Source: Mesorhizobium loti R88b (lineage in GTDB: Bacteria; Pseudomonadota; Alphaproteobacteria; Rhizobiales; Rhizobiaceae). From it: DNA of 64,000 bases. The notes beneath the pieces were generated by a model. That model was not told the origin of the DNA. It did not search any database and saw only the letters and a program-made list of their open reading frames with translations. The DNA lies in NCBI RefSeq assembly GCF_013170845.1, contig NZ_CP033367.1, positions 1,488,001-1,552,000 on the forward strand. The letters are read 5' to 3'. Positions 16,893 through 50,741 of this stretch are shown one piece after another (the first letter of the stretch is position 1; each line of letters opens with the position of its first letter). The position numbers were made by a program, and so were the translations under genes.

Positions 16893-17223
16893 GGTTGTCT
16901 CCCCGGTCCCCGACGTTGGAGGGCGACGCAGGCACCCGTGCCCGCCATTTCGATGACCGAGCGTTTAGCGCCGTGCCTGTTTCGGAACGATGCCGCGAAA
17001 AAGCCCGCTCTGTTTCAGCGTCGGCCAACGCATGGAGCTGTTGAGATGGCAAACGTGCCGCCGGGTTTTCTGTTATTGTCACATGCGTCGGGCGGGTTGG
17101 CGCGACATCGTCTTGAAACACTAACGATGCTAGTGCGCCGACGCCGGGAGCCCGGTGGCGACAGGATCGCCTGACGATCAACGCATTCCCGAAAACGGGA
17201 AAAGGCAATTCGAGGGGACAGAC
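16893..17223. other. 331-base intergenic region
   Basis: This lies between the divergent DUF2269 gene and the small membrane protein gene at 17224. No convincing reading frame is present. A hairpin TTCCCG-AAAA-CGGGAA occurs at 17186-17201, just ahead of the ribosome-binding site of the downstream gene (GAGGGGACAG). Nothing else is recognisable. Confidence 0.6.
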
Positions 17224-17604
17224 ATGCAAGGGGTAGCACGGAATTTCTTCACGCTGGCGATCATCTATGCTTTGTGCGGCATGGCGCTCGGTATCCACAT
17301 GGCGATCAGCGAAGACCATGGCCAGATGCCGACTCACGCCCACACGATGGTGGCGGGATGGCTGATGTCGGCGGTCTTCGCTTTCTTCTACCATCTGTTT
17401 CCGGCCGCCGGGCAAAAGGTGCTCGCCAAGGTTCACTTCTGGCTGACGGCGATCAGCGGCATCGGGCTCATGATCGGCCTTTACATTCTGCTCGCCGGCA
17501 ATCCGGGGATAGAGCCGCTGCTGGGAATCGCCTCGATCGGCTTCTATGCGGGCATGCTGCTGTTTGCCTTTATCGCCCTGCCTGTCGTGTGGAAAAAGGC
17601 CTGA
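17224..17604 (+). CDS. Small four-helix membrane protein with conserved-looking histidines
   Basis: 126 residues from ATG 17224. Four membrane helices are predicted at about 6-25, 38-58, 68-90 and 95-118. Histidines sit near helix ends (GIHMAISEDHGQMPTHAHTMVAGWL, where HAH lies next to the second helix, and YHLFP). The pattern recalls individual helices of haem-copper oxidase subunit I, but the protein is far too short to be an oxidase. It may bind haem or a metal. The name and role are unknown. Confidence 0.72.
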   Translation: MQGVARNFFTLAIIYALCGMALGIHMAISEDHGQMPTHAHTMVAGWLMSAVFAFFYHLFPAAGQKVLAKVHFWLTAISGIGLMIGLYILLAGNPGIEPLLGIASIGFYAGMLLFAFIALPVVWKKA

Positions 17605-17682
17605 GCCGGAGGCCGAGAGGGCTCTTGGGACTGTGCTGTTACGGCACAGAAATGCGGCATTCGGTCAAAAACATCGGTGCCG

Positions 17683-17697
17683 TTAAGGCTTCATTAA
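17683..17697 (+). promoter_or_regulatory. CtrA-type box upstream of the sRNA candidate
   Basis: Exact TTAA-GGCTTCA-TTAA, the alphaproteobacterial CtrA consensus TTAA-N7-TTAA. A -10-like TACTAT lies at 17712-17717, so the box would overlap the -35 region, as in CtrA-activated promoters, with transcription starting near 17722. Confidence 0.6.
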
Positions 17698-17719
17698 GCT
17701 TTACAAGTGTTTACTATGT

Positions 17720-17819
17720 TCATCCAGTGATCTGGATTCTTACCGAGTGGTTGGAGCCACTTTGTTTGACGCCTCCCTGTTAAACTCCTGAGAGCCGCCT
17801 TATCCGCGGCTCTTTTTTT
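17720..17819 (+). ncRNA. Candidate trans-acting small RNA (~100 nt) with three stem-loops
   Basis: No reading frame explains this stretch, yet it is highly structured. Stem-loop 1, 17722-17737, is ATCCAG-TGAT-CTGGAT. Stem-loop 2, 17746-17761, is AGTGG-TTGGAG-CCACT. An unpaired segment 17762-17790 contains CCTCC and CTCCT, which are anti-Shine-Dalgarno-like. An intrinsic terminator follows at 17791-17819. A CtrA-type box and a -10-like element sit just upstream. This is the layout of a Hfq-era trans-acting sRNA. Cell-cycle sRNAs are known in Rhizobiales (for example EcpR1); whether this is the same RNA could not be tested. Confidence 0.6.
17791..17819 (+). terminator. Intrinsic terminator
   Basis: Stem AGAGCCGC / GCGGCTCT around a 7-base loop, followed directly by a run of six T. 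It lies 187 bases after the preceding coding gene and ends the candidate sRNA. Confidence 0.88.
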
Positions 17820-17857
17820 GTCCGGATTCCGGCGACAGCCCAGACCACGAATGGCCG

Positions 17858-17872
17858 TTAACCTTCTGTTAA
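17858..17872 (+). promoter_or_regulatory. CtrA-type box upstream of the DUF1465 gene
   Basis: Exact TTAA-CCTTCTG-TTAA, 115 bases before the DUF1465 start and after the sRNA terminator, so it would serve a separate promoter. Confidence 0.6.
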
Positions 17873-17987
17873 ACATGTGCTTGCCTTCACCCCCCGCGAA
17901 GCGCATTTTCAAGCTTCAGTCATATAGGGTTCCGGGTGTATCGGCAGTGAGCCGAATCGGCCGGTTGCAAGTGCAGGGGCGTATTCA

Positions 17988-18521
17988 ATGAACGAGCCTT
18001 CGAAGGGCAGTGCGAAAACCGTGAAGCTGGCGGAACGTCGGGTTTTTTCGCACTCCTTCAAACCGCTCTACCAGGAAGGCATGGGCCTGGTTGAACAGGC
18101 CGCCGAATATCTCGACGGCAAGGGCCGCGCCGAGGCCAAGAAACTGTCTCGGCTGGCGGCCACGCTCTACGCGGCCGAATCGATGCGGCTGACCACCAGG
18201 CTGATGCAGGTCGCCTCCTGGCTACTTTTGCAGCGTGCGGCCAATTCCGGCGAGATGACCCGCGACCAGGTGGCTTCGGAAAAGTCCAAGGTGCGTCTCG
18301 ACACCGCTTCCGCCCATGATGAAGCCGCCGGCTGGGCTGAACTGCCCAAGGATTTCCTCGACCTCGTCAACCGCTCGCTTCGCCTGCAGGCGCTGGTGCG
18401 CCGCATGGATGACGAGATCTACGGCGCCGGCGCCGTGGTCGACATGCAGCCCATAGGCCGCCGGCCCAATCCGGTTTCCGACCAGATCAGCCTGCTCAAC
18501 ACGGCTTTTGCTCGGGGTTGA
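17988..18521 (+). CDS. DUF1465 family protein
   Basis: 177 residues, soluble and largely helical, of a family confined to alphaproteobacteria. The start ATG 17988 follows AGTGCAGGGGCG. The helical core (FSHSFKPLYQEGMGLVEQAA and AAESMRLTTRLMQVASWLL) is typical. No catalytic residues are evident and the function is not established. A CtrA-type box upstream suggests cell-cycle control. It precedes ruvC by 74 bases and may share its transcript. Confidence 0.8.
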   Translation: MNEPSKGSAKTVKLAERRVFSHSFKPLYQEGMGLVEQAAEYLDGKGRAEAKKLSRLAATLYAAESMRLTTRLMQVASWLLLQRAANSGEMTRDQVASEKSKVRLDTASAHDEAAGWAELPKDFLDLVNRSLRLQALVRRMDDEIYGAGAVVDMQPIGRRPNPVSDQISLLNTAFARG

Positions 18522-18595
18522 GATCTTTCGGCCTTTCGTTTCCGGTTTGTTCACATTTCGCTGGCATCGCTGTCCGCCGGAGGTAAACTCGCCGG

Positions 18596-19105
18596 ATGGG
18601 GGAAGCGATTCGCATTATCGGTATTGATCCGGGGCTCAGGCGCACCGGCTGGGGCATCGTTGAGAGCCTCGGCAATTCCTTGCGCTTCATAGCTTCCGGC
18701 ACCGTGCGCTCCGACGACAAGGCGGCGCTGGCGACACGGCTTTGCCAGTTGCATGACGGGCTCGCCGAAGTCCTGCATACGGCGATGCCACACGAGGCGG
18801 CCGTCGAGCAGACCTTCGTCAACAAGGATGCCGTGGCGACGCTCAAGCTCGGCCAGGCGCGTGGCATCGCCATGCTGGTGCCGGCGCGGGCCGGCCTCGT
18901 CGTCGCCGAATATGCGCCCAATGCGGTGAAGAAGGCGGTCATCGGCGTCGGCCATGGCGACAAGAAGCAGATCCACATGATGGTGAAGGTGCTGCTGCCG
19001 AAAGCGACGTTCGACACCGAACACGCCGCCGACGCGCTGGCTATTGCGATTTGCCACGCGCATCACCGGCAGAGTGTCGCCTACCGTATGGCGCTGGCCG
19101 GCTAG
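18596..19105 (+). CDS. ruvC: Crossover junction endodeoxyribonuclease RuvC
   Basis: 169 residues. The RNase H-fold Holliday-junction resolvase motifs are all present: Asp11 in [14 protein letters not shown], Glu in [12 protein letters not shown] and the C-terminal acidic pair in [14 protein letters not shown]. It cuts four-way junctions processed by RuvAB. Normally it heads a ruvC-ruvA-ruvB operon; here a toxin-antitoxin pair lies between ruvC and ruvA. ATG 18596 follows CCGGAGG. Confidence 0.97.
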
Positions 19106-19161: not shown

Positions 19162-19431
19162 ATGCGCGTCACCACCAAGGGGCAAGTTACAATCCCCAAG
19201 CCGATAAGGGACCATCTGGGCATCGGTCCGGGTTCCGAGGTGGAATTCGTGGCTACCGACGGGGGCGTTCAGTTGGTTGCCGTCAACGAGAACCTCTCCC
19301 AGGAGGAGAAATTGCGCAGGTTCAACGACGTCCTTGACCGGATGGCGGGGACGTTGGATCTGGGAGGCATGACCACCGATCAGTACATGGAGTGGTTGAG
19401 GGGGCCGCGTGAAGATCTCGACGTTGATTGA
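19162..19431 (+). CDS. vapB: AbrB/SpoVT-type antitoxin of a VapBC pair
   Basis: 89 residues. The N-terminal ~45 residues are a swapped-hairpin AbrB domain (MRVTTKGQVTIPKPIRDHLG, then GSEVEF). The acidic, flexible C-terminus (ending REDLDVD) would wrap and neutralise the toxin. The toxin gene starts inside it, overlapping by 23 bases. Base composition is visibly less G+C-rich than the ruv genes around it, suggesting acquisition. It would bind the palindrome directly upstream. Confidence 0.9.
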   Translation: MRVTTKGQVTIPKPIRDHLGIGPGSEVEFVATDGGVQLVAVNENLSQEEKLRRFNDVLDRMAGTLDLGGMTTDQYMEWLRGPREDLDVD

Positions 19432-19828
19432 CACAAATGTCCTGATCGACGTCTGGGGACCGGCCGGGCCGCTGAAAGAATGGTCGGCATCTGCGATCGC
19501 TTCATGCCGCCGCGACGGTGCCTTGGTGTTAAATACAATCATCTGGTCTGAGCTCGCGCCGCTGATCTCCACGGAGACGGCGCTTCGAAAAGCCGTCGAC
19601 ATGCTCGAGATGGATCGCGAACTTGTACCTTGGGACGCAGCGTTTCTTGCGGGCGTCACGCATTCCCGCTATCGCCGGGCCGGCGGTGTTCGCGAAAGAA
19701 CCTTGCCGGACTTCTTTATCGGCGCTCATGCGAGCGTTGCGGGGCATCGTCTTTTGACACGCGACGCCGCGCGTTACCGCAGTTATTTCCCCGACCTCGA
19801 TATCATCTCTCCGGAAACACACCCATGA
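19409..19828 (+). CDS. vapC: PIN-domain toxin ribonuclease VapC
   Basis: 139 residues from GTG 19409, within the antitoxin gene. The acidic PIN quartet is present: Asp8 (LIDTNVLID), Glu48 (WSELA), Asp101 (LPDFFIGAHA) and Asp119 (LLTRDAARY). VapC toxins cleave tRNA or rRNA when freed from VapB. The active site looks intact, so the toxin should be functional. The last codons and stop lie in a 23-base tandem duplication, which changes the 3' junction to ruvA. Confidence 0.9.
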   Translation: MKISTLIDTNVLIDVWGPAGPLKEWSASAIASCRRDGALVLNTIIWSELAPLISTETALRKAVDMLEMDRELVPWDAAFLAGVTHSRYRRAGGVRERTLPDFFIGAHASVAGHRLLTRDAARYRSYFPDLDIISPETHP

Positions 19829-37969: not shown

Positions 37970-37984
37970 TTAAACGCCTTTTAA
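37970..37984 (+). promoter_or_regulatory. CtrA-type box upstream of the first outer-membrane barrel gene
   Basis: Exact TTAA-ACGCCTT-TTAA, 84 bases before the ATG, preceded by another GGTTAAG at 37955. Confidence 0.6.
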
Positions 37985-39055: not shown

Positions 39056-39070
39056 TTAACCGTGACTTAA
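39056..39070 (+). promoter_or_regulatory. CtrA-type box upstream of the second outer-membrane barrel gene
   Basis: Exact TTAA-CCGTGAC-TTAA, 81 bases before the ATG. It is followed by an overlapping palindrome TTAACC-ACTAT-GGTTAA (39067-39083), giving three TTAA half-sites in a row. Confidence 0.62.
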
Positions 39071-39974: not shown

Positions 39975-40074
39975 GCGTTTGAAATCACGCGAACCTGATC
40001 GCGGACCGCCTGTATCCCGGCAGCGACAAAAACTTTCCTCTTGACGCCCGAAGCCTGAACGCATATCGCCGTCC

Positions 40075-40119
40075 GTGGGCCACCCCTCCCCAACGAGGGG
40101 CCACTATCTGGAAGGATAG
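40075..40119 (+). promoter_or_regulatory. serC-type cis-regulatory RNA leader
   Basis: Hairpin 1 pairs GTGG (40075-40078) with CCAC (40101-40104) around an inner stem CCCCTC / GAGGGG. Hairpin 2 pairs CTATC (40104-40108) with GATAG (40115-40119); its loop TGGAAG contains the ribosome-binding purines 7-15 bases before the serC ATG. The position and shape fit the 'serC' RNA motif described upstream of alphaproteobacterial serC-serA. The ligand of that motif is not established. A TTGACG -35-like element lies at 40041. Confidence 0.7.
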
Positions 40120-40125
40120 ACCACG

Positions 40126-50580: not shown

Positions 50581-50693
50581 CGAAACGCTCTAACGGGGTG
50601 CCGGCTGCGATCTTCGCGGACCGGCTGAGAGGCAGTATCGCCAACCCGCTGAACCTGATCCGGTTTGTACCGGCGGAGGGATTAGACGTTTCG
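50581..50693 (+). promoter_or_regulatory. TPP riboswitch (THI element)
   Basis: P1 pairs CGAAACG (50581-50587) with CGTTTCG (50687-50693). The conserved CTGAGA lies at 50625-50630, ACCTGATC at 50653-50660, a CCGG-TTTGTA-CCGG hairpin follows, then CGGAGGGA at about 50674-50681. It lies 48 bases before the thiB start and would shut down thiamine uptake when TPP is high. Confidence 0.97.
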
Positions 50694-50741
50694 GACAGTC
50701 CGACGCCTCAATTCCTTTCAATTCGAACGAAGGAGGCGCCG

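Follow-up and report, generated by a model that had tools for sequence, protein, structure and literature searches.

The window analysed here, 64,000 nucleotides of Mesorhizobium loti R88b DNA, contains a stretch at 17683–17819 across which no gene was recognised, the overlapping mechanical ORFs being 17274–17783 (+) and 17694–17912 (−). The stretch begins with a CtrA-type box, which raises the question of whether the box drives a small RNA and, if it does, which RNA this is and what it acts on. Judged from sequence comparison, we consider it highly likely that 17683–17819 is a CtrA-activated sRNA gene of Rfam family RF02356 (BjrC1505), most probably a trans-acting one that works through an anti-Shine–Dalgarno (anti-SD) motif and is made together with rcdA.

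The RF02356 gene and its RNA structure

A full-length match to RF02356 occupies 17675–17819 (+) (model positions 1–140, 68.6 bits, E 9.2e-11), above the gathering score of 50 bits, and is the only match in the whole 7.2-Mb genome. Rfam classes the family as an alphaproteobacterial sRNA gene. The original prediction of a structured sRNA gene here, which had proposed an Rfam search as a check, is borne out by this match and by stems with compensatory changes. The gene is very probable and the family itself already known; what is new is its placement beside rcdA and, as the sequence suggests, under CtrA. BjrC1505 is expressed as a discrete small RNA in B. japonicum, and its founding report is said to be a Bradyrhizobium study. 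In the literature searched, which lies mostly outside subscription journals, BjrC1505 appears in one paper, among predictions tabulated for Herbaspirillum, and the identifier RF02356 in none; that search found no work tying BjrC1505 to CtrA or rcdA and no function for the family.

Among genomes drawn from the order, 245 of 297 have an RF02356 match at E≤0.001 (212 over the cut-off) and 52 have none, as against 0 of 14 control genomes at the same threshold. Within the family the match is found in 111 of 121 genomes drawn (67 over the cut-off) at E≤0.05, a level at which the Thermotoga control also gives a weak match. Class-wide, 30 of 289 genomes drawn are positive at E≤0.001 (14 over the cut-off), including at least one false match (L124, tRNA-like). 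PF07323 (RcdA) is present in 27 of these 30 and in 80 of the 259 others, a comparison uncorrected for kinship. The control set includes Caulobacter vibrioides, which carries PF07323 and, unlike the window genome, has no RF02356 match. Elsewhere in the window, a TPP riboswitch (50584–50698) and a serC leader (40073–40124) are matched over their gathering scores.

The segment 17720–17819 has a folding energy of −36.7 kcal/mol (z = −4.97), which none of 200 shuffles equalled, and its minimum-energy fold consists of three hairpins followed by a terminator. SL1 (ATCCAG-TGAT-CTGGAT; 17722–17737, +) is probably the 5′-terminal hairpin and SL2 (GAGTGGT...GCCACTT) spans 17745–17762 (+). SL3, at 17764–17785 (+), is a weak hairpin that shows CCTCCC (17772–17777), and the intrinsic terminator with its U tract occupies 17790–17819 (+), the hairpin ending at 17814 and the T run at 17819. 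The fold first proposed had two stem-loops, an unpaired CCTCC strand and a terminator. Its stem-loops and terminator stand, but the supposedly unpaired motif turns out to be the loop of a third hairpin.

Covariation was assessed in an alignment of 70 diverse sequences. The named structure is paired in 85.0% of cells, compared with 41–49% after the 3′ partners have been displaced by 1–3 columns, and 20 of the 30 pairs show change on both sides. Double-sided changes occupy 104 cells against 39.6 in shuffles, a control that leaves kinship in. The compensatory-change check proposed for the two upstream stems finds such changes in 6/6 pairs of SL1 and 7/7 of SL2, the innermost pair of SL2 being formed in only 25 of 68 sequences; in the terminator 6 of 9 pairs are double-changed. 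SL3 lies within the most conserved segment, TTTGACGCCTCCCTGTT, which is near-invariant and displays CCUCCC in a hexaloop. Its inner four pairs (GACG-CCUCCC-UGUU) hardly vary and its outer pairs are often missing in relatives, and covariation speaks neither for nor against this hairpin. A group of thirteen thinned sequences stands apart, and ten of its members (L104–L109 and L127–L130, Rhizobium-like) keep CTCCCTGTT and a mostly exact box, with SL2 rebuilt and GACGCC lost. The full presumed seed is not universal, and the alignment points to a lineage-specific change in these ten.

The CtrA box and probable promoter

The box itself, TTAAGGCTTCATTAA at 17683–17697 (+), is an exact TTAA-N7-TTAA, as had been reported. 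Exact boxes number 4 in the 64-kb window (shuffle mean 0.02) versus 2 in 800 kb sampled elsewhere in the genome, that is, 6 in the 864 kb made up of the window and 40 sampled 20-kb stretches. Two exact boxes, at 37970–37984 and 39056–39070, lie upstream of two PF13505 outer-membrane beta-barrel ORFs; these porin-like genes may be CtrA targets.

To follow the box through relatives, 245 loci were anchored on CTCCCTGTT and the 70 bases from −125 to −55 scored for TTAA-N7-TTAA (maximum 8). After thinning by shared 8-mers, 192 of 200 loci score 7 or 8 (106 exact); in a control window taken upstream, 2 of 194 do. We prefer this figure, within which three chance matches remain, to the unthinned 234 of 245 (two control windows farther upstream gave 2 of 237 and 1 of 241), a count that includes two misplaced windows (L136 and L222, where the match is at the locus end) and five chance matches. 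The latter (L199, L227, L161, L179 and L228) come from other phyla, where the 17-base pattern occurs by chance and neither box nor terminator accompanies it. They sit inside the 245 anchored loci and the 202-sequence thinned set, three of them inside the thinned 200, and were left out of the second-box, rcdA-duplex, per-family, SL1-spacing and RNAalifold counts. The pattern search for loci gave at least 118 matches; whole-genome draws and named contigs partly overlapped, which is why the loci were thinned. L124 and L026 have no anchor; L032 and L114 have two candidates, of which the first was taken.

A stem search located SL1 in 153 of 197 thinned loci. Relative to SL1, the 5′ base of the box lies between −38 and −40 in 131 of these 153 loci, and at −39 in the window. 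Activating full CtrA motifs in Caulobacter are described as having their 5′ base near −35, and the motif at ctrA lies at −39 of P2, where it activates, and at −14 of P3, where it represses (PMC4287350). With the start placed at SL1, the box at 17683 has the spacing of a CtrA-activated promoter, and its position therefore predicts activation. Both this distance and the retention of the box in relatives support the proposal that it drives the candidate sRNA. We infer a transcription start at about 17721–17722. In 80 of the 153 relatives the best TATAAT-like hexamer begins at −13 or −12 relative to SL1, and the one in register with them in the window is GTTTAC/TTTACT (17709–17715, +; beginning at 17709/17710). 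This is the probable −10, in place of the TACTAT originally named; it is weak, and a sigma-70 promoter scan of 16900–18700 found none. CtrA~P at 17683 would start an RNA of about 98 nt near 17722, in which SL1 forms the 5′ end, SL2 comes next, the weak SL3 exposes CCUCCC/CUCCCUGUU and the terminator closes the molecule.

The hairpins, CCUCCC loop and terminator are those of BjrC1505 (RF02356). The difference concerns the 5′ end of the Rfam model, which appears to treat a promoter, CtrA box included, as if it were structured RNA. The box corresponds to model positions 8–22. In the 5′ stems (model positions ~1–46), 5 of 14 pairs are non-standard in the window, and ten further members each have between 3 and 5 such pairs. 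RNAalifold on 184 relatives placed no pair in the 5′ part, a result of little weight taken alone, since the full-length run on the same gappy kind of alignment also missed SL1. Taken together, these observations suggest that the first ~46 positions, the 5′ third of this curated model, are promoter DNA, and the stems drawn there a flaw of the model.

rcdA and the ownership of the box

Downstream of the terminator, the ORF at 17988–18521 (+) is rcdA, which encodes an adaptor for CtrA proteolysis (PF07323, 181.5 bits; RcdA of PDB 3ctw, E 1.1e-28; NCBIfam equivalog NF051867, 205.5 bits with a cut-off of 170). The next gene, by profile match, is ruvC (18596–19105, +). The sRNA had been placed next to the ruv operon; ruvC is indeed nearby, but the closest conserved neighbour is rcdA, which that description missed. 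Between ruvC and ruvA, at 19162–19828, an ORF resembling a MazE-type antitoxin overlaps a PIN-domain ORF, apparently a toxin–antitoxin pair inside the ruv cluster.

Of the thinned loci with room, 164 of 180 have rcdA on the same strand within 900 nt downstream (200 of 219 unthinned). This arrangement, together with a structured segment that ends in a terminator and with agrobacterial maps of transcription start sites (TSSs) that give rcdA extra starts (PMC10469942), is what would be expected if the RNA formed the leader of a long rcdA transcript, the terminator gating read-through. An anti-terminator pairing between SL2 and the 5′ arm of the terminator can be drawn and forms in 84% of cells, but its covariation does not exceed that of shuffles (0.132 against 0.133). 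Moreover, rcdA has an exact box of its own (17858–17872, +, in the window) between the sRNA terminator and the gene, exact in 50 of 55 loci whose RcdA is at least 55% identical to that of the window; among the 121 other loci it is exact in 5 and has one mismatch in 25. The RNA and its box also occur without rcdA within 900 nt in 16 of the 180 loci, and the Rfam class is that of an sRNA gene. A leader of rcdA is therefore unlikely. We favour a separate sRNA gene whose RNA would be made together with the adaptor, since it holds a conserved place before rcdA and rcdA has its own exact box here and in close relatives. CtrA would produce the RNA alongside the adaptor for its own destruction, late in the cell cycle if the timing follows that of Caulobacter.

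In every one of the 16 loci that lack an adjacent rcdA the box still scores 7 or 8 (9 exact), which indicates that it belongs to the sRNA and travels with it. They include L120, with rcdA ~1.5 kb downstream, and L187, with rcdA on the opposite strand. In four of the 16, from genomes outside the order (L065, L067, L069 and L116), the RNA and box precede another long ORF, presumably O-acetylhomoserine sulfhydrylase-like, rather than rcdA, and in G453, G579 and G675 rcdA is ~42–46 kb away. This retention, the compensatory changes in three helices and the near-invariant segment all argue against a box that controls rcdA only and an RNA that is a functionless by-product. We regard that reading as very unlikely, even though CtrA control of rcdA has been predicted to be conserved in a cluster of Alphaproteobacteria (PMC2877005).

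An sRNA promoter at this position bears on published observations. In S. meliloti, CtrA ChIP-seq sites are reported in the rcdA promoter region and CtrA depletion leaves rcdA unchanged (PMC4433202), and in three agrobacteria the rcdA orthologues are described with several TSSs and possible CtrA sites farther upstream than in Caulobacter (PMC10469942). The sRNA promoter may be the source of the Sinorhizobium signal at an unchanged rcdA and of the agrobacterial TSSs, although the descriptions of the ChIP sites and TSSs (PMC4433202, PMC10469942) do not name this RNA. Its placement makes it possible to test directly why CtrA occupies the rcdA region in Sinorhizobium and yet leaves rcdA unchanged, and the tie to CtrA and rcdA situates the RF02356 family within the bacterial cell-cycle circuit that has been studied best. 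In a bolder and rather improbable reading, two neighbouring promoters under CtrA would yield the adaptor for CtrA destruction and, with it, a restraining sRNA, which would act directly at the ribosome-binding site of rcdA mRNA or on the translation of other S-phase mRNAs. This order-wide post-transcriptional arm of the circuit would then have been hidden, its promoter having been annotated as RNA and its CtrA signal credited to rcdA.

Probable mode of action and candidate targets

The most likely mode of action, on the evidence of the RNA's architecture, is a translational block in trans. The display of an anti-SD motif, part of the original prediction, is supported, the motif being presented in the SL3 loop. 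CUCCCUGUU would pair with the ribosome-binding sites of mRNAs and block their translation, as suggested by this anti-SD loop and its near-invariance. Many relatives carry CUCCUGU in the SL2 loop as well; the window genome does not. AbcR RNAs are described with CU-rich anti-SD motifs in unpaired parts (PMC7143759), and mmgR/AbcR-like RNAs (suhB, RF00519) likewise have such a motif before the terminator. Membership of RF00519 was rejected at 21.9 bits at the locus against a gathering score of 41; the window genome has its own member at C1:2312263 (65.5 bits).

The nearest functional parallel is CcnA (CCNA_R0094) of Caulobacter crescentus, which is thought to be CtrA-activated and is described as using a C-rich loop on G-rich sites of the ctrA and gcrA mRNAs (PMC8959179). 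It differs in its locus, at the replication origin, and in its CCCC loop. Kinship with EcpR1 (SmelC291) had also been raised. Both sRNAs are conserved in Rhizobiales, have a link to the cell cycle and lie near cell-cycle genes. EcpR1, however, is described downstream of divK–pleD, with the loop UCCGCCGCAUCU and under stress and stringent-response control (PMC4414408), whereas the locus at 17683–17819 is not divK–pleD, lacks the UCCGCCGCAUCU motif and has another architecture. The missing loop and the different locus rule out identity with EcpR1, and the chance of membership of its family is negligible. The UCCGCCGCAUCU 12-mer has seven copies in the window genome, of which the one at C1:4233283, 2.7 Mb off, is near a GGEEF-coding frame.

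Prediction from the seed established no target in tests of rcdA, ctrA, gcrA or an own-genome pattern. ctrA leaders (19 loci) and gcrA leaders (20 loci, in 4 of which no start codon was located) share no convincing site, their duplexes being mostly long-looped. For rcdA the picture is mixed. Pooled duplex energy with rcdA start regions is −16.6 (n=176), compared with −12.1 (first ATG) and −14.1 (best start) for 532 control ORFs, which are mechanical long ORFs with uncertain starts. CAGGG occurs at 34 of 176 rcdA starts versus 12 of 532 controls and GGCGU at 36 versus 14, each about eight times as often; the ordinary SD core GGAG shows no such excess (26 of 176 versus 81 of 532). The shuffle z of the rcdA duplex is −0.53 against 0.02 in controls. 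The window's own family has the clearest effect (−18.6, n=41, versus −12.3, n=45), and the raw per-family difference is negative in 28 of 40 families (p 0.003).

These energies and enrichments, with the conserved adjacency, would fit an sRNA that acts chiefly on rcdA in a feedback loop, pairing at the rcdA ribosome-binding site to delay CtrA destruction. The rows share ancestry, however, and against a reversed seed the per-family difference is negative in only 22 of 40 families (p 0.23); among 645 ORFs sampled from the window genome, rcdA comes 105th as a target. Because neither the reversed-seed test nor this rank is supportive, we keep rcdA as a rival reading, and a rather unlikely one, instead of an established target. 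Should rcdA or further cell-cycle mRNAs prove to be its targets, the RNA would represent a conserved form of post-transcriptional control, shared by symbionts and the remaining Rhizobiales. Within the window genome, the one genome searched in this way, the pattern AACAGGGAG...ATG gave 9 matches in 8 places without a clear theme; two of them precede ORFs that read as ABC-transporter binding proteins.
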